A stretch of DNA of 64,000 bases from Acidobacteriaceae bacterium (lineage in GTDB: Bacteria > Acidobacteriota > Terriglobia > Terriglobales > Acidobacteriaceae). The translations under genes and the position numbers were made by a program. This document shows, in pieces, positions 30,408-40,440 of this stretch; the first letter of the stretch is position 1, and each line of letters opens with the position of its first letter. The notes under the pieces are model-generated. The model saw only the letters and a program-made list of their open reading frames with translations. It searched no databases and had not been told where the DNA came from. The DNA lies in assembly GCA_021323655.1 (NCBI GenBank), contig JAJPKO010000010.1, positions 124,001-188,000 on the forward strand, written 5' to 3'.

Positions 30408-31565
30408 ATGAAAGTGTCAGTTATCCTGGGCACACGCCCGGAAGCCATTAAACTTGCGCCTGTCATTCTTGCTCTGAGGGCGAGCAACGAATTCGAGTGC
30501 CATGTCTGCGTCACTGGCCAGCACCGGCAGATGCTCGACCAGGTGCTCGAAGTCTTTCAGATTGTTCCTGATGCCGATCTCGACCTGATGACTGACAGCC
30601 AGACGCTCAGCGGCCTTACAGCACGGGCACTTACGGCCCTTGATGCCTATCTATCGCAGGAAAAGCCGGACCTAGTACTGGTGCAGGGCGACACAACAAC
30701 CGTCTTCACTGCTTCTCTGGCCGCTTTTTATCACGGCATTCCGGTGGGACACGTCGAAGCCGGGCTGCGTACCGGGAACCTGCATTCTCCATGGCCGGAA
30801 GAAGCAAACCGCGTCCTGACCAGCCGGCTTACCGCTCTGCACTTTGCCCCGACCGAAAGTGCGCGCCAGGCACTTTTGCGCGAAGGTGTGCCGCAAGGTG
30901 ACATTTTCGTGACAGGAAACACCGTCATAGATGCTCTTTATCTTGCCGTGGACCGCGCGAAGAGTTTGCTTACGGAAATCTCCGGACTGCCGCGAGAGAT
31001 CATGGCAAGGAATGCTCCGGTCGTGCTGATTACAGGCCATCGCCGCGAGAGTTTTGGCGAAAAGCTTGAAGCGATATGCCAGGCCATCCTTGACCTGGCT
31101 GAAACATTCCCTGAGGCGCAGTTTGTTTACCCTGTGCACCTGAATCCGCAGGTGCGCCAGACGGTCATGCGCATGTTGTCGGTACCACAGTGCAACAATA
31201 TTCACCTTATTGCGCCATTGTCTTATCTACCCTTTGTTGCGCTGATGCAGCGCGCCACCCTCATCATTACTGACTCCGGCGGCGTGCAGGAAGAAGCGCC
31301 GGCGCTGGGAAAACCCGTTCTCGTTACGCGCGATACTACGGAACGGCCAGAAGCCCTCGCTGGCGGCACCGTCAAGTTAGTAGGCGCAGACCGCGCGGCG
31401 ATTGTGTGCGAAGCGACCAGGCTGTTGAGCGATCCCGAACATCTGCGCGCGATGTCCCATGTCTGCCTGCCTTATGGCGATGGCAGGGCAACGGAAAGAA
31501 TTCTGGCCGCTATGGCCGCGCGTTTTGCCCTGCAGCAAGATCTTGTCCCGGTGGTGGGCCAGTGA
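30408..31565 (+). CDS. wecB: non-hydrolysing UDP-N-acetylglucosamine 2-epimerase family
   Basis: KVSVILGTRPEAIKLAPVI, VTGQHRQMLDQVL, VQGDTTTVFTASLAAFY, GHVEAGLRTGN, ITDSGGVQEEAPALGKPVLVTRDTTERPEA. Confidence 0.95.
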   Translation: MKVSVILGTRPEAIKLAPVILALRASNEFECHVCVTGQHRQMLDQVLEVFQIVPDADLDLMTDSQTLSGLTARALTALDAYLSQEKPDLVLVQGDTTTVFTASLAAFYHGIPVGHVEAGLRTGNLHSPWPEEANRVLTSRLTALHFAPTESARQALLREGVPQGDIFVTGNTVIDALYLAVDRAKSLLTEISGLPREIMARNAPVVLITGHRRESFGEKLEAICQAILDLAETFPEAQFVYPVHLNPQVRQTVMRMLSVPQCNNIHLIAPLSYLPFVALMQRATLIITDSGGVQEEAPALGKPVLVTRDTTERPEALAGGTVKLVGADRAAIVCEATRLLSDPEHLRAMSHVCLPYGDGRATERILAAMAARFALQQDLVPVVGQ

Positions 31566-32920
31566 TGAAGCAGCCGCCACGGATCCTGATGATCAGCCCG
31601 CTCTTTCCGCCTATGGCGGATTCCGAGGCATTTTGTGCCGGAAAAATGGCGCTCGCTTTGCGCAATGCCGGCTGCGATGTCCAGATCATCTATTGCAGTA
31701 ATTACCCCGGCGCCGGGCGTAAAGACAGTTCGCAGATGTGGAAAGAGTTTTCCTGCTGCGCGCATGATGTGCCACTTCCTCCCGGCAGTTGGATCAGGTC
31801 TCTCCCGTATGCAATGCGCTACGGGATGCCATTCTTTTCTCAGTGGCTACGCGACGCTGTGAAGTTGGCAAAACAGCTTCATGCTGCGGCGCCGTTCGAT
31901 CTGGTGCAGTCCCGGTCACTCCCCATGATTTCCCATGTGGCCGGATACCACGTGTCCCGGCAGCTCAATCTTCGCTGGAATGCGAACCTCAATGATCCGT
32001 GGGACTTTCATTTTTTTCCTGATGCCGTCCGCATTCGCGGGCTACGGCGATACGCCCATGCTGCGCGTGCTGCGCTGCGATTTCGCCGCATTGGACCAAT
32101 TTCAAACTACTGGATGCGAAAGACCTTTCGCACGGCAGACCTGGTGACCTTCTGTTCTGCGCGGCTTCGTGACTATCACGCATCCTTTACAGCACTTTCG
32201 CCGAAGAGCGCGATTGTGCCCCACATCGGCGGGGCGGCCAATCTTCAGGCTTTGGCAGAAATTCCGGGCGGTCTGCGCCTGGTCCACGCAGGAAAACTCG
32301 GGGCGAACGAATTTACCGGACGCTCTACAAGGACCCTCCTTCAGGGCATGGCGGCATTTGTGCAGATGTACCCGCAGCATGATCTCGACTTTTCCCTGAC
32401 TCTGGTTGGCCCGGAAGACAAAGAGACGACGGGCCTGGTCCGTGCGCTCGGGCTGGAGAAATTTGTGCGTAGCATCGGGCCGGTCAGTTACGAAGAGAGT
32501 CTGCTATGGATTGCACGCGCCTCTGTCTGTGTCCTCGTAGAGGCCCGCATGGAAGAAGGAATCTTTTTCCCGTCCAAATGCGCCGACTACATCGCGATGG
32601 GGAAACCTATCCTTGCCTTCAGCCCGGAAAAGGGCGTTGTTGCTGATCTTGCAGCACTCGGCAGCGGAATTACTCGCATTCATGGCGAAGACGCTGCAAG
32701 TGTCGCCTTCACGCTCGAACGCTATTATGCCGCGCAGCAGAAAGGCCAGCTTTCCCAGTACGCTCCCGATGAAAATCTGCGCAGCCTCTGCTCTCCGGAA
32801 CACGCGGCAGACACTTTTCTCTATCTCTGCCGGGCAAAGGTGAAACAGGCAGTCACATTTCCCCGTTGGGAAAAAACTTTCTCACAACCGAAGCCGGAAG
32901 CCCAGGGCACACCTAAATGA
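31565..32920 (+). CDS. glycosyltransferase (GT4-like)
   Basis: Starts MKQPPRILMISPLFPPMADSEAFCAGKMALAL, overlapping the wecB stop (TGATG); LRLVHAGKLG, LTLVGPEDKET, CADYIAMGKPILAF. Confidence 0.85.
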   Translation: MKQPPRILMISPLFPPMADSEAFCAGKMALALRNAGCDVQIIYCSNYPGAGRKDSSQMWKEFSCCAHDVPLPPGSWIRSLPYAMRYGMPFFSQWLRDAVKLAKQLHAAAPFDLVQSRSLPMISHVAGYHVSRQLNLRWNANLNDPWDFHFFPDAVRIRGLRRYAHAARAALRFRRIGPISNYWMRKTFRTADLVTFCSARLRDYHASFTALSPKSAIVPHIGGAANLQALAEIPGGLRLVHAGKLGANEFTGRSTRTLLQGMAAFVQMYPQHDLDFSLTLVGPEDKETTGLVRALGLEKFVRSIGPVSYEESLLWIARASVCVLVEARMEEGIFFPSKCADYIAMGKPILAFSPEKGVVADLAALGSGITRIHGEDAASVAFTLERYYAAQQKGQLSQYAPDENLRSLCSPEHAADTFLYLCRAKVKQAVTFPRWEKTFSQPKPEAQGTPK

Positions 32921-34299
32921 CAGCACTTTCCCGATATCTGCCGAAACCGCTCCAGCAATGGATCCATAACAATCCCATGGGGCAGCGCCTCGCCCGCGGC
33001 GCTTTCTGGACACTGCTCGGAACCATTGCATCGCGTGTGCTGAGTATTCCCGTTTCTGTCATTCTGGCTCGCTGGATGGGCCCTTCGCATTATGGCGAGC
33101 TGGGCGTAATCAACAATAGCGTTGATCTGTTTATCGTCTTCGCTGGCTTTGGGCTCGGCCTGACCGCAACCAAGCATATTGCTGAATTTCGCACAACTGA
33201 TCCGGAACGCGCGGGGCGCATTCTTGCACTTTCTAATGTGACCGCAGGATTCACCGCGACAGTCACTGCCATTGTGCTCTGGCTGGCTGCGCCATATCTT
33301 GCCATGCATACCTTAAATGCTCCGCAGCTTACCGGATCACTTCGTATTGGAGCGATCATTCTTCTCCTTGCGGCCATCAATGGGGCGCAACAGGGCGCGC
33401 TGTATGGTTTTGAGGCCTTCCGCACGACCGCGAGAATTCAGGCGATTGTGGCCCTTCTGAATCTTCCCTTCAGCCTGATTGGCTACTGGCTGGGCGGACT
33501 CAATGGTGTGCTCTGGGGGATGGTGGCAACGCGCGCCGCCGACTGGCTCCTGCGCCGCATGGCCCTGCTGAAGGAATCCCGCAACAGCGGCGTGCCCATG
33601 GGGCTGAAAGGATGGACGCGGGAGTTGCACGTCCTCTGGAAATACAGCATTCCCGCGCTGCTCTCGGGGGTGATGGTGGCGCCCGTTAACTGGGTCTGCG
33701 CGGCCATGCTGGTCAATCAGCCCAGAGGCTACGCGCAGATGGGCATCTACAACGCCGCAAACCAATGGTATGGCGCGCTGCTTTTCCTGCCGACGGTCCT
33801 GGGCAGCGGCCTGCTGCCGCTGCTTTCCGAGCGCATGGGCCATCAGGACAGCCACTCTTCGGGGAAGGTCCTCTTCTTTATGCTGCGACTGAACGCGATC
33901 ATCGTGCTGCCTGCGGCCCTGCTGGGCGCAGTGCTCAGTCCCTGGATTATGCGTCTGTATGGCCCTGCTTTTGCACATGGATGGCCGACCCTAGTCGCTG
34001 TTCTCTTTACTGCGGCCATCTTCGCTGTGTTGATTCCAGTCGGTGATGTCATAGCCGCTTCAGGACGTATGTGGATCGGCATGGCCATGAACGCAGGCTG
34101 GGCACTGATCTTCATCTCCGGAACATATATGTTCGTGCACCGCGGCTCATTCGGTCTGAGCCTGGCACGTCTGGTGGCTTATATCGCCCACGCAGCGTGG
34201 ACGATCGCCTTTGCATGGCTGATCATCGCGCGCTCCCGTTCGGCAACGAAGCCAACGATCTCCTCCTCTCCTGTTGCAGCAGGAAGCGAGGCTGCATAA
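32917..34299 (+). CDS. oligosaccharide flippase family protein (Wzx)
   Basis: Polytopic MATE/MVF-like protein: GAFWTLLGTIASRVLSIPVSVILARWMGPSHYGELGVINN. Confidence 0.92.
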   Translation: MTALSRYLPKPLQQWIHNNPMGQRLARGAFWTLLGTIASRVLSIPVSVILARWMGPSHYGELGVINNSVDLFIVFAGFGLGLTATKHIAEFRTTDPERAGRILALSNVTAGFTATVTAIVLWLAAPYLAMHTLNAPQLTGSLRIGAIILLLAAINGAQQGALYGFEAFRTTARIQAIVALLNLPFSLIGYWLGGLNGVLWGMVATRAADWLLRRMALLKESRNSGVPMGLKGWTRELHVLWKYSIPALLSGVMVAPVNWVCAAMLVNQPRGYAQMGIYNAANQWYGALLFLPTVLGSGLLPLLSERMGHQDSHSSGKVLFFMLRLNAIIVLPAALLGAVLSPWIMRLYGPAFAHGWPTLVAVLFTAAIFAVLIPVGDVIAASGRMWIGMAMNAGWALIFISGTYMFVHRGSFGLSLARLVAYIAHAAWTIAFAWLIIARSRSATKPTISSSPVAAGSEAA

Positions 34300-34425
34300 G
34301 TATGCGCAATTGGTTGCACATCTTTAATCGCGTAGATCTTTTGACACAACTCACACGAATGGCAAGCCACATGCAAGTCTCTGCATCGAGGATGGCCAGT
34401 TTTCTCCCGGATGGCTGGAACAACA

Positions 34426-37400
34426 ATGAAAAAAACACTGCTTTTCGCGATTGCGCTCTGCCTGATGGTGGTGCGACCTGCTTCATCTCAGACTGCGGCC
34501 TGGATGGACCCTGCCTGGTTGTATCGCAACCCAGTCACTATCAATAACTCCAGCGGAACGACCCTGACGGGCTTTCAGGTGAACATCAACCTGGGCAGCG
34601 AGACAAACTTTTCAGCGGCCAAGGCTGGCGGCGCCGACCTGCGCGTCACCGCAAGCGATGGCGTCACGCAGCTGCCTTTCTGGATTGAAAGCTGGAACGC
34701 GTCCAGCTCGCAGGCCAGCATCTGGGTCAAGGTGCCCAGCGTTCCCACCACCGGCACATCTCTCTTTATCTATTATGGGAACCCCAATGCCGCGACTGCC
34801 TCAAATGGCAACAATGTTTTTGAGTTCTTCGATGACTTCGAATCGCCCGGCGGAACGCAGACAGGATATTTTGCGCAAAGCGGTCCGGTGACGGTGATGG
34901 TGCAGGACCAGACCTGGGAGGCCAATCCGCCACACACTCTGAGCGTGGTGCAGGCAAACCAGAACGGTTACACCTATTCCGGTTATTACGGCACGTATCA
35001 GTGCGATGGCGTCGGTCTTGCGTACAGCAACGATCTCGTCCATTGGACAAAGACCGGCTCTCCGCTCATTACCGGCGGACGCTGGCCCACCGTCCAGCTT
35101 GTCAACGGCGTCTACTACATGCTGTACGAGAAAAATTTCTGCACTGCCACCAGCTACATCGAGCTGGCCAGCAGCACAGACGGGCTGCACTTTACGGATG
35201 TAAAACCCATCGTCCAGGCCAAGTCCGGCTATCGCAATCAGAACCCGAACCTGTTCCTCAATCCCAATGACCACCTCTGGTATCTCTACTGGTACTACGG
35301 AGACGACTCCTCCAACTTCAATATTTACGTAAGGAGCGCATCGTCCATTACCGCGCTGGACACGGCCTCCACCAGCGTCGTGCTTACATCCAGCGCAAAG
35401 ATGGCCGCGCCCAGCATGTTCTACTACGGCGGCAAGTATTATCTTGCAACCGAGGGCACGGACCCAAATCAGCAGTGGGTCACAAACGTATATTCCAGCA
35501 GCTCGCCCAAGTCCGGATTTACTCTCGTTCCCGGCAATCCCGTTTTGAGCAACGGCGGCGCCTGCATGTTCCAGCAGTCGTTTGGCAGCACACTTTACAA
35601 CTACAATTGCCAGCAGACCAACGGCGCGTGGACACTGCAAATGCGCAGCGCCAGTCTTACTCCCGGGCCGCAGAAGTTCGGCACGTTCAGCACATCCAAG
35701 TGGAAAATCAGCAATGGCGGCGTGTGGGCCATCATTCCTGATACGCAGCCCGATGGTACACAGGGCCACGTGGCTCAAGCGCAGACTGCAAAGCGCCAGG
35801 TACTCGTCACGCCCAACTATTCCGCTGGAGATTACATCGTGCAGGTTTGGGGCAAACAGGTCCTCGGCACGGTCTGGGGGCTCGGTGTCCATGCTACTGC
35901 ATGGTCCAATCTGGACTCCGTCAACCTTTATGGAAACATGAACGGAGGCCCAAATCTGTATTCGTACGGCTGGTTCAATAACACCACCGATATAGCCAAC
36001 ATGCAGGTCCTGCAACTGAACGCGGGGAACGTTCAACCTGCCACCTGGTACAAGATCATCACCAAAGTCCATCAGGGGACGATTGAGGTGGGCACTAACG
36101 GTCAGAGCGCCCAGGGATCCGATTCGACCCTGGCGTCCGGCGGCGTAGCCCTGTATGCCGAAGGCGGTACGAATGCCGAGTGGGACAATCTGCTGGTCAG
36201 AAAGTATGCCATCGTTGACCCAACTGCTTCAGTGGGTCAGGCCACACAGGCGGGAATTGCTTCAGTCAGCGTATCGCCGTCATCGGTCCTCGGCGGAGCT
36301 ATTTCACAAGGAACTGTGACTTTGGCCATCGCTGCACCAGCCGGTGGAGCGACGATCTCACTCTCCAGCAACTCATCGGCTGCCGTGGTTCCATCCACCG
36401 TTACCGTGCCGGCCGGGTCATCCTCGGCGAACTTCACGGTAACCACAAGCTCCGTTGCGACTGCGACCTCGGCCACTATTTCTGCCACCTACGGCAGCTC
36501 GGGTCAATCCACAACGCTTACTGTCAATCCGTATTTGTCGAGCATCTCCCTCTCTCCTTCTACGGTACAGGGAGGCAGCTCCTCGCAGGGCACTGTGAAG
36601 TTGTATGCAGCAGCGCCTTCCGGAGGGGCCACCATTTCGCTTTCCAGCGGAAGTAACGCGGCCATGGTGCCGACCAGCATCATCATTCCCGCAGGACAGG
36701 CATCGGGAACCTTCAACATCAGCACCAGCGCGGTCAATGTCAACACTACTGCACAGATCCAGGCCAGCTATGGAGCAGCCAGCGTGACATCCACGCTGAC
36801 GATTCTCCCGCCGTTGTCCTCCTTTGTGGTCAGTCCGTCTACGATCATTGCCGGGGCAACTTCGCAGGGCACCATTACTCTGGGCAGTGCTGCTCCTTCA
36901 GGCGGTGCAGTAGTTTCGCTGAGCAGCAATAATCCGGCGGCAAATGTGCCTGCATCTGTTACAGTTCCTGCTGGCGCCACATCGGCAGCATTCACCATCA
37001 CTGGAGGCCCCACCGCCACCAGCGCTTCTGCCACCATCACTGCGTACTATCAGGGAGCGACACAGACAGCATCCATCACGGTGTTGCCGGCGCTTGCTTC
37101 GCTCTCCCTCAGCCAGAACAATGTCTTTGGCGGAAACAGCACGCAGGGTACCGTCACCCTCAGCGGGGCTGCACCAGCCGGTGGAACAGTCGTCAATCTG
37201 TCGAGCAACAGCACTGCGGCGAATGTGCCGGCCAGTGTGACCGTGGCCGCAGGAGCCACCAGCGCGACCTTCATCGTAACTACAACCACAGTTACCTCGA
37301 ACACATCAGCGGCCATTACAGCGTCGGCTTTCGGATCTTCGCAGGTCGCATCGCTTACTGTCGCTCCGGCTTCCGGAAACTGGTACTCGCCTTCGTGGCA

Positions 37401-40400
37401 GTATCGCAGCGCTGTCACCATCACCAACTCAAACAGCACTACGCTCACAAACTTCCAGGTGAAGGTGCAGCTGGGTTCCAGCTTTGATTTCACCAAGGCC
37501 CTGGCGAATGGGGCAGATATCCGCTTCACCGCCTCTGATGGCCTCACGGTCATTCCCTTCTGGATAGAGAGCTGGAACAGCACGAGCGCTGTACTGTGGG
37601 TGAATGTGCCTTCCATCCCAACATCCGGCACTACCATCTTCATGTACTACGGCAATCCAGCCGCCACCACTGCATCGAATGGCCCGGCAACTTTCATGTT
37701 CTTCGATGACTTCAGTGGGGGCACCATTGATTCCAGCAAATGGGTCTCTGCGGGCGGAACGTGGTCTGTCATCTCTGACACGAACGAAAATGGCGTGAAC
37801 GCCAGTGTGGCGCACGGCGCAACCACCAATCGGCAGGTGCTCTACTCTACCTGGACGGGTACCGACTATGTTGCCGACGTCTTTGGCAAGCAGACCGCCG
37901 GACGCGTCTGGGGACTGGGTGTTCGCGCCACCAACAACTCCAATCTGTACACGCTCAATCTGTACGACGACCTGAACGGTGGTACCAACCTCTATGTCTA
38001 TAGCTGGGTAAATGACTCCGGCGGAAATGCCACAGCTACTCTTGGCGGCGGGAATGCCGGAACGGTCACTGGAAACAATTGGTATCGCCTCACCGCCAAG
38101 GTGCACGGCAACGGGATCGACATTCTGGCCAACAACGTTCCGGTCACGTCTGTTACAGACAGCACGAACGCACTTACTTCCGGTGGTGTCGCTCTCTATG
38201 GCGAAGCCGGAACGACAGCAGAATTTGAGAATGTTATCGTGCGGCAGTATGCGGCCACAGACCCTGCTACCAGTGTTGGCCCAACCACCACACAAGGTGG
38301 AGGGACCACCGGCGGCGGAGGCGGCAATAATGCCCGCGTCTATCGCATTTGCATGACGCAGGCTGAAGTCAATGGCGGAGCAAGCCAGCCCGCAACCTGC
38401 ACTCTGCCCAGCGGGGTCTCTGTTCCCGCAGGACACGGCGTGGTGGTCTTCGTCTCCTTCCCGAGCACGACCACAATTGCAACTAATGCCGTCTCAGATA
38501 CAGAGGGCAATACTTACACCTATCTCACGACCCAGCAGGATGAGGGCACCGCAGACACAATCTGGGCCTGGTCCTCTGTGCTCAGGAACCCGCTGAACGC
38601 CGGAGACATCATTACCCTTGTTCCTCCGCAATTCTGGGGCGCATGGAACCTCTACATCTATGACATTGGGCCGGTCACCGGAACAGATACTTACGCCGCT
38701 GATCCGCTCTACTACAACACCTCATGGACCCTGGGGCCAACAACTGCCACGACAGGCGCCAAGGACGTTTGTCTGGGTGCTGCGGGAGTCAATCAGATAG
38801 CCACGCCACCTGCCTCTGATTTCTCAGTGACGAACAACTTCACGCTGCTCGACGTCACCAACTTCCACAATCCGCAAAGCGCCAACTACCCAGGCAAAAA
38901 CCTGGTCACGATGTGGGGTGAGTTCACTTCGGGCACTCAGGTCTCAACCACGCTCACCAGCACCATTGGCCCGGACACAGGCTCGTCTATTCTCGGCTGC
39001 TGGATCGAGTCCTCCACTTCGCAAACCCAAACGCAGATCAAAGCCAATCTCCAATTGCAGCCCGCCGTGGTGACCTTTTCCGGCACCGTGGTTGGCGCAA
39101 CCGCCACGGCGCAAAACATTATCGTCTCCAACACGGGAAATGCCAGCGCATCGCTCCAGTCCTCCACTGTCAGCGGCGATTTCCAGATCAATAACAGCAC
39201 CTGTGGAACAGCGCTAGCGCCAAATGCAAGCTGCACCGTGTCACTGGTTTTCGTTCCTAAGGCTTCTGGCGCCCGCACGGGCGCATTGAGTATCCAGGAC
39301 ACGACGGGGCCGCATCTTGCGCAGCTTTCCGGCACTGGACTTACTCAGGCCACAGCTACTCTCTCGGCCCTTGGTCTTGACTTCCCGCTGCCTATCACAA
39401 TCGGAGCAAACAGCGCGGCTGAGGTGGTCACGCTTACCAATAATGGGGACGCTGCGCTTAATCAAATCGCGATGAGTGTTTCCGGTGATTTTTCTGTAGA
39501 AGACGGGTGTGGTACGCAGCTCGCAGGCCATGCCACCTGCCCGGTTCTGGTCACCTTCGCACCTACAAAAGCAGGAGTTGAGCAGGGAACGCTCCAGATT
39601 GCCACCATGCTGGGCCCGCAACAGGTCAGGCTCTCCGGCACTGGACTGTCTCCGCCGCTCCTTTCTCTGATCTCCACTCTGACCGGTTTCGGCGGACAAG
39701 GTCTGAACACTACCAGCAGTAAACAATCCCTAACAATCAGCAATCGCGGAGGGGCCTCTCTCACCGGCCTCAGCTTCGCAGTCCATGGCGACTTTGCCAT
39801 TGCAGACAGCACCTGCGCAGCAGGTACCGTGCTCGCTTCCGGAAGCGCATGCACCTTTGGCCTTACTTTTACCCCGACCCAAACAGGAACCCGCCTCGGT
39901 ACCCTGACCATTTTCGGCACCAACCTTGCTTCTCCTCTTGCCGTGCCATTGCAGGGCATTGGAGAAGACTTCCAGATCGCCGTCGCGGGCCCGGCATCGC
40001 AGACCGTGAAAAGCGGACAGCCCGCGACTTATCAGATCCAGTTCACATTTGTTGGAGGATCCCATGGCATGCCGTTCATCGCTTGCTCCGATCTTCCACA
40101 GAACGCCACCTGTACGGTAAACAATCCGGCAGTGAATGGCAATACGCTGAATGCAACCGTGACTCTTGCGCCGGCGACGAATACCGCGAGCGCCTCCGGA
40201 GCAACAGCGTTTACCCTGGTATTCTTTCTCCCGTTCTTTGCGGGATTCGCGAAGCGCCGCAATCTTTTGCATGTCATGCTCATCTGCTTTGTTTCCGTGG
40301 CGCTGTTTTCTACCCTTGCCTGTGGCATCCAGCCGGGAAGCTTCGGGGCAGGACTCCAGCCCGGCGTCTACACCGTCCACATCAACGCAACGCTCGACGG

Positions 40401-40440
40401 CTTGACAAAAAGTGTTCCCGTCATCTTGAGGGTGCAGTAA
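34426..40440 (+). CDS. giant secreted multidomain protein: DUF2341-like modules, beta-propeller (GH43-like) insert, Ig-like repeats, choice-of-anchor-D/ASPM-like repeats, C-terminal TM segments
   Basis: Signal peptide MKKTLLFAIALCLMVVRPASSQ; WLYRNPVTINNSSGTTLTGFQV and WQYRSAVTITNSNSTTLTNFQV; four ASVSVSPSSV-type repeats; three SGDFxIxxxxCGTxLxxxxxCxVxxxFxPxxxGxxxGxL repeats. Confidence 0.9.
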   Translation: MKKTLLFAIALCLMVVRPASSQTAAWMDPAWLYRNPVTINNSSGTTLTGFQVNINLGSETNFSAAKAGGADLRVTASDGVTQLPFWIESWNASSSQASIWVKVPSVPTTGTSLFIYYGNPNAATASNGNNVFEFFDDFESPGGTQTGYFAQSGPVTVMVQDQTWEANPPHTLSVVQANQNGYTYSGYYGTYQCDGVGLAYSNDLVHWTKTGSPLITGGRWPTVQLVNGVYYMLYEKNFCTATSYIELASSTDGLHFTDVKPIVQAKSGYRNQNPNLFLNPNDHLWYLYWYYGDDSSNFNIYVRSASSITALDTASTSVVLTSSAKMAAPSMFYYGGKYYLATEGTDPNQQWVTNVYSSSSPKSGFTLVPGNPVLSNGGACMFQQSFGSTLYNYNCQQTNGAWTLQMRSASLTPGPQKFGTFSTSKWKISNGGVWAIIPDTQPDGTQGHVAQAQTAKRQVLVTPNYSAGDYIVQVWGKQVLGTVWGLGVHATAWSNLDSVNLYGNMNGGPNLYSYGWFNNTTDIANMQVLQLNAGNVQPATWYKIITKVHQGTIEVGTNGQSAQGSDSTLASGGVALYAEGGTNAEWDNLLVRKYAIVDPTASVGQATQAGIASVSVSPSSVLGGAISQGTVTLAIAAPAGGATISLSSNSSAAVVPSTVTVPAGSSSANFTVTTSSVATATSATISATYGSSGQSTTLTVNPYLSSISLSPSTVQGGSSSQGTVKLYAAAPSGGATISLSSGSNAAMVPTSIIIPAGQASGTFNISTSAVNVNTTAQIQASYGAASVTSTLTILPPLSSFVVSPSTIIAGATSQGTITLGSAAPSGGAVVSLSSNNPAANVPASVTVPAGATSAAFTITGGPTATSASATITAYYQGATQTASITVLPALASLSLSQNNVFGGNSTQGTVTLSGAAPAGGTVVNLSSNSTAANVPASVTVAAGATSATFIVTTTTVTSNTSAAITASAFGSSQVASLTVAPASGNWYSPSWQYRSAVTITNSNSTTLTNFQVKVQLGSSFDFTKALANGADIRFTASDGLTVIPFWIESWNSTSAVLWVNVPSIPTSGTTIFMYYGNPAATTASNGPATFMFFDDFSGGTIDSSKWVSAGGTWSVISDTNENGVNASVAHGATTNRQVLYSTWTGTDYVADVFGKQTAGRVWGLGVRATNNSNLYTLNLYDDLNGGTNLYVYSWVNDSGGNATATLGGGNAGTVTGNNWYRLTAKVHGNGIDILANNVPVTSVTDSTNALTSGGVALYGEAGTTAEFENVIVRQYAATDPATSVGPTTTQGGGTTGGGGGNNARVYRICMTQAEVNGGASQPATCTLPSGVSVPAGHGVVVFVSFPSTTTIATNAVSDTEGNTYTYLTTQQDEGTADTIWAWSSVLRNPLNAGDIITLVPPQFWGAWNLYIYDIGPVTGTDTYAADPLYYNTSWTLGPTTATTGAKDVCLGAAGVNQIATPPASDFSVTNNFTLLDVTNFHNPQSANYPGKNLVTMWGEFTSGTQVSTTLTSTIGPDTGSSILGCWIESSTSQTQTQIKANLQLQPAVVTFSGTVVGATATAQNIIVSNTGNASASLQSSTVSGDFQINNSTCGTALAPNASCTVSLVFVPKASGARTGALSIQDTTGPHLAQLSGTGLTQATATLSALGLDFPLPITIGANSAAEVVTLTNNGDAALNQIAMSVSGDFSVEDGCGTQLAGHATCPVLVTFAPTKAGVEQGTLQIATMLGPQQVRLSGTGLSPPLLSLISTLTGFGGQGLNTTSSKQSLTISNRGGASLTGLSFAVHGDFAIADSTCAAGTVLASGSACTFGLTFTPTQTGTRLGTLTIFGTNLASPLAVPLQGIGEDFQIAVAGPASQTVKSGQPATYQIQFTFVGGSHGMPFIACSDLPQNATCTVNNPAVNGNTLNATVTLAPATNTASASGATAFTLVFFLPFFAGFAKRRNLLHVMLICFVSVALFSTLACGIQPGSFGAGLQPGVYTVHINATLDGLTKSVPVILRVQ
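36246..37374 (+). repeat. four tandem Ig-like repeats of about 90 aa inside the giant gene
   Basis: Each copy: (S)LSxSPSxVxGGxxSQGTVTLxxAAPxGGAxxSLSSNxxAAxVPxSVTVPAGxxSAxFxxTT...ATITAxYxxxxxTxxLTVxP. Confidence 0.88.
39040..39970 (+). repeat. three tandem choice-of-anchor-D/ASPM-like repeats of about 100 aa inside the giant gene
   Basis: SGDFQINNSTCGTALAPNASCTVSLVFVPKASGARTGAL / SGDFSVEDGCGTQLAGHATCPVLVTFAPTKAGVEQGTL / HGDFAIADSTCAAGTVLASGSACTFGLTFTPTQTGTRLGTL. Confidence 0.88.

Follow-up and report, generated by a model that had tools for sequence, protein, structure and literature searches.

A GH43/GH32-like propeller enclosed by the first of two DUF2341 modules in a giant secreted protein encoded beside polysaccharide genes of an Acidobacteriaceae bacterium

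The window analysed here (64,000 nucleotides of the Acidobacteriaceae assembly GCA_021323655.1, contig JAJPKO010000010.1, positions 124,001 to 188,000 of the forward strand) holds a gene for a giant protein in which two related modules occur, one of them longer than the other by an entire domain. The locus raises the question of what this additional domain is, how it came to lie within one module only, and what such a protein may do beside genes of polysaccharide export.

Two modules and the domain nested in one

The gene and the parts of its product, in positions of the window, are:

34411..40440, + strand: whole gene, 2009 aa; a single ORF with a signal-peptide-like N-terminus
34501..34824, + strand: module A DUF2341 (Pfam PF10102, found in two stretches of the protein, and HMM search of the genome)
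34825..34839, + strand: module A FFDDF, ConA-like strand 1 (aligned with the module B FFDDF, strand 108-110 of the confident module B model)
34846..35679, + strand: nested GH43/GH32-like five-bladed propeller, aa ~146-423 (missing from module B; Pfam GH43, Foldseek PDB matches and stand-alone relatives)
35680..36237, + strand: remainder of the module A ConA-like domain, 46-47% identical to module B
36238..37377, + strand: Ig-like repeats in tandem, separating module A from module B (S.S.GT.VTL...P.GG..V.LSS recurs in the translation)
37381..37698, + strand: module B DUF2341 (Pfam PF10102)
37699..38280, + strand: module B ConA-like domain, unbroken (AlphaFold2 model; Foldseek best match CBM66)
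38326..39045, + strand: unnamed conserved segment, aa 1306-1545 (~90% identity to the congener; no Pfam match)
39046..40110, + strand: three ASH / choice-of-anchor D repeats (Pfam and NCBIfam NF012200)
40192..40329, + strand: two hydrophobic segments around KRR, within the last Ig-like domain (hydropathy scan)

A second in-frame ATG lies at 34426, ahead of the signal-peptide-like stretch, and the boundaries of the insert are accurate to a few residues. The Ig-like repeats gave no Pfam match at E 1 except a weak one to DUF6476, the segment at 38326..39045 is more conserved than most of the rest of the protein, and the choice-of-anchor D assignment rests on an NF012200 score of 107 bits (cut-off 45) over three stretches. 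The protein is probably secreted, with its C-terminal region keeping it at the cell surface, and the hydrophobic segments at 40192..40329 are a possible membrane anchor built into the Ig domain, as judged from the sequence. A similar-looking hydrophobic stretch was seen ahead of the last strands of a related protein from another family of the class (G172).

Modules A and B each consist of a DUF2341 and a ConA-like domain and are 53% identical, and their DUF2341 domains scored 98.5 and 90.9 bits against a curated Pfam cut-off of 23.4. BLASTP of A against B returned two blocks, of 136 bits (46% identity, ConA) and 129 bits (61%, DUF2341), whereas 200 shuffles of B scored at most 24.6 bits. In module A, FFDDFESPG starts at aa 139 (34825) and TSKWKISNGG at aa 428 (35692); in module B, FFDDFSGG starts at aa 1097 (37699) and TIDSSKW at aa 1105. 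The FFDDF-to-SKW spacing is therefore 7 residues in B versus ~285 in A, and the surplus of A, ~275 residues, falls between ConA strand 1 (FFDDF) and SKW. A first-pass annotation of this DNA had described a module duplication with an extra domain in one copy only, and both BLASTP and the spacing of these motifs confirm it, at the coordinates that had been given.

The isolated insert scored 34.5 bits against Pfam GH43 (cut-off 32.2), and Foldseek with the module A model ranked GH43 xylosidases first (E 6e-9), with GH43 and GH32 enzymes leading the list; this model was weak overall (pLDDT 57, from a small alignment), but the propeller core was well modelled (pLDDT ~80-90). On the Pfam and Foldseek results the insert is a five-bladed GH43/GH32-type propeller, as the first-pass annotation had proposed from blade motifs, and the structure prediction suggested there as a check did reveal a propeller in this region. 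Compared with its counterpart in a congener (G001), the insert showed 88% identity over 266 aa with zero gaps and a low dN/dS of ~0.03, dS being saturated; it is, on this basis, a coding domain under selection. A chance match or frame artefact is ruled out by the shuffles, the low dN/dS and the gap-free insert of the congener. Recent foreign DNA was likewise rejected, the GC content (56.1%) and GC3 (73.4%) of the insert matching those of the module A DUF2341 (57.4% and 73.1%). Secreted, stand-alone GH43-like relatives (L003-L010 and L015-L018, from Acidobacteriota and others) were 36–42% identical over the full length of the insert.

The scaffold was modelled on module B in place of A because adding plain modules to the alignment made MAFFT misplace their ConA parts. 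The AlphaFold2 model of module B, from 36 sequences (pLDDT 86, pTM 0.86), has a ConA-like beta-sandwich fold, and the best Foldseek match of its ConA part was CBM66, with a TM-score of 0.75-0.77 by target length. From this fold match and general knowledge of such domains it follows that FFDDF should belong to the ConA sheet. In the model FFDDF gives a short strand at 108-110 and the next strand begins at residue 122, so that the module A insert maps to an 11-residue loop; together with the CBM66-like character of the ConA part, this places the propeller as a nested domain within a discontinuous lectin-like sandwich.

The same loop in other surface proteins

The congener has the same protein in the same place, with the insert in module A only. 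G172 and G208, genomes from two further families of the class, each encode a protein with one recognised DUF2341 that carries a homologous propeller at the corresponding point (in G208 on a contig of only 3.9 kb); no further nested copies were found within the families of G172 and G208. These two proteins rule out an insertion private to the protein studied here. We regard module A as an evolutionarily stable composite.

In the DUF2341 modules with a findable ConA end motif, plain spacing is the rule: FFDDF and that motif lay 147–197 aa apart in 45/56 modules and 407–572 aa apart in only 11/56, with no intermediate values (one more row, a truncated match, was due to chance). Pfam identified unrelated propellers in the long-insert modules, namely Kelch in L093 (5e-24), BNR_4 in L107 (3e-28) and BNR_2 in L112 (1e-38), while the inserts of L071, L083, L091 and L147 had no Pfam name and the DUF2341 of L147 fell just below the cut-off. 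The ConA domain visibly resumes past the insert in six of these modules. A GH130-like propeller, with a sub-threshold score (23.0 vs 26 bits), occupies the same loop in G641, which belongs to a different family of the phylum. An HMM search also found a relative of the GH43-like propeller within DUF2341 itself, in a different loop (L076:4623-6431, E 1e-24); on viral contigs, searches by the insert family's own motifs confirmed no member.

The finding of different wheel-shaped domains in the same loop of other microbes makes this loop look like a reusable mounting socket. In our view the loop after ConA strand 1 probably serves DUF2341-ConA modules as a general socket, one that has taken up unrelated propellers (GH43-like, GH130-like, Kelch, BNR_2 and BNR_4) as interchangeable heads of surface proteins, both in bacteria and in sequences whose origin is uncertain and may be archaeal or viral.

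The modules with unrelated propellers are mostly on IMG/VR contigs without host assignment and may be cellular; L093, L094, L107, L112, L083 and L091 are such contigs, with DUF2341 modules containing Kelch, BNR and other inserts. In the G641 protein (L063:3998-11215), several copies of a 'SPADYVEGTL...PY.DRSY' domain alternate with PKD-like and cadherin-like stretches.

Gene neighbourhood, catalytic positions and probable function

Three genes precede the composite gene:

30408..31565, + strand: UDP-GlcNAc 2-epimerase gene (Pfam Epimerase_2)
31565..32920, + strand: adjacent glycosyltransferase gene (Pfam Glyco_trans_4_4 / Glyco_trans_1_4)
32917..34299, + strand: adjacent Wzx-type polysaccharide flippase gene (Pfam Polysacc_synt)

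The order in the window is thus Epimerase_2-GT-Wzx-composite gene, and a WecB-like/GT/Wzx order stands beside the composite gene of the congener. The order in G172 is Asn_synthase-Wzy-GT-Wzx-GT2-composite gene; in G641 the gene with the other propeller as head is followed by Wzx, and in G338 a plain relative comes after carbamoyltransferase and FkbM methyltransferase genes, likewise of polysaccharide type. This comparison covers three lineages with nested modules and one plain, the G208 contig being too short to tell. The earlier suggestion of a propeller in one module of a giant cell-surface protein, encoded beside an EPS locus, is supported as far as the nested propeller, the giant secreted protein and the adjoining polysaccharide locus are concerned. 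The nearest stand-alone relatives of the insert adjoin MFS transporters, and their neighbours suggest sugar breakdown. One such relative (L067:156-5583) has a GH42/GH5-like enzyme, a ROK kinase and an MFS transporter encoded close by, possibly as a sugar-use set.

Alignment with the B. pumilus xylosidase placed Asn278 opposite Asp127 and Ala332 opposite Glu186, and hhalign with the canonical GH43 sequences L011/L012 paired these two residues with the equivalent Asp and Glu. In two independent alignments, therefore, the general acid Glu is replaced by Ala332 and the pKa-modulator Asp by Asn278, so that on those residues the insert falls outside GH43 as an enzyme family, and its earlier description as glycan-active becomes doubtful. 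The position of the catalytic base Asp in blade 1, which lies outside both alignments, is occupied by His175 as read by eye.

The reading that we favour, with some reserve, is that the composite provides a glycan-binding head, displayed at the surface on a lectin-like scaffold and probably non-hydrolytic, which would serve the polysaccharide of the cell itself. The scaffold would consist of DUF2341 and the CBM66-like ConA sandwich; the propeller, tethered at both ends to the loop that joins ConA strands 1 and 2, would be the head. The Ig-like repeats would space out this secreted protein, and its C-terminal region would keep it at the surface. The propeller pocket and the ConA face may bind glycan without classical GH43 hydrolysis, the glycan most likely being the polysaccharide that the cell itself exports, and module B would add another lectin-like contact that lacks a head. 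Support for a glycan-binding head comes from the nesting and the fold, conservation, the same-site occurrence, the split of embedded from stand-alone propellers, the L076 propeller, the replaced catalytic residues, the polysaccharide neighbours, the CBM66-like ConA domain and the pairing of propeller and sandwich in type II GH43 enzymes, and glycan binding by the nested propeller is plausible. The sugar-breakdown setting of the nearest stand-alone relatives speaks against this reading.

Second in rank, and in our judgement rather unlikely, is that the nested propeller works as an enzyme through non-canonical catalytic residues, trimming or remodelling the polysaccharide while ConA and DUF2341 hold the substrate. 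Glu170, His175 and Glu348, together with Trp/Arg positions, are invariant across 15 sequences, and these three residues could be catalytic; the stand-alone relatives occur within sugar-use gene sets; and enzymes of GH43 subfamily 24 use Gln in place of the catalytic Asp base (PMC7939473), so that missing canonical residues are no proof of lost catalysis. However, the general acid and pKa-modulator positions are both replaced in the family, and the embedded copies also lack Asp/Arg conserved in the stand-alone group (TRDYDT -> EKNFCT and RACLFQH -> GACMFQQ). A pilus-tip-like adhesin, with a foreign surface and not the cell's own polysaccharide as its target, seems improbable: DUF2341 has a published link to archaeal type IV pilus tip adhesins and to PilY (PMC4858521), and unrelated interchangeable heads would suit changing targets, but the neighbours examined included polysaccharide genes and no pilus genes.

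Order of events and comparison with known systems

In scaffold trees built with the insert removed, module A grouped with G172 and not with B (95/85 with 51 rows; 65/87 with 14 rows), although an A+B clade was not rejected (AU p 0.16), and these trees give no clear answer on which copy came first (AU p 0.16 and 0.25). An unrooted tree separated the propellers embedded in DUF2341 proteins from their stand-alone secreted relatives with 100/100 support. Given the same nested propeller in G172 and G208, the grouping of A with G172 and this split, the nested insert is most likely older than the protein that now carries it. Plain module B either never had a propeller or lost it, and if A and B are sisters after all, loss from B is the simplest account. 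The order proposed in the first-pass annotation, in which the propeller jumped into A alone, in this lineage, after an internal duplication had made A and B, is the least likely and finds very little room: the two modules do share one gene and 53% identity, and their clade was not rejected, but the congener has the same arrangement, and the homologous propellers in the same loop of G172 and G208, the A-G172 grouping and the 100/100 split would together require that members of a single propeller lineage had entered this one loop more than once.

DUF2341 is a domain without assigned function, and its nesting of propellers, with polysaccharide export neighbours in several lineages, provides a testable idea of the role of giant surface proteins; the loop itself would be a natural site for the insertion of large domains, already exploited by evolution. 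Repeated propeller nesting at one DUF2341-ConA loop was not described in the open literature searched. Both modules pass the Pfam cut-off for DUF2341 (PF10102), as do surface proteins that include archaeal pilus-associated ones. The stand-alone GH43-like proteins are single-domain proteins of ~310 aa and, unlike the insert, are not embedded, some of them lying near sugar transport genes. CBM66, a fructan-binding module of B. subtilis, comes closest in structure to the module B ConA part but shares only 18–19% sequence identity with it, and the ConA part is here fused to DUF2341 and, in module A, split by the propeller. Type II GH43 enzymes pair a propeller with a beta-sandwich, by which the groove of the active site is closed (PMC5919610), and the type II GH43 beta-xylosidases and GH32 levanases, the top Foldseek matches, combine the same two folds with the sandwich beside the propeller. 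There the two domains stand in tandem, whereas here they are nested, the sandwich starting before the propeller and ending after it, and the propeller is without the acid and pKa-modulator residues of those enzymes.
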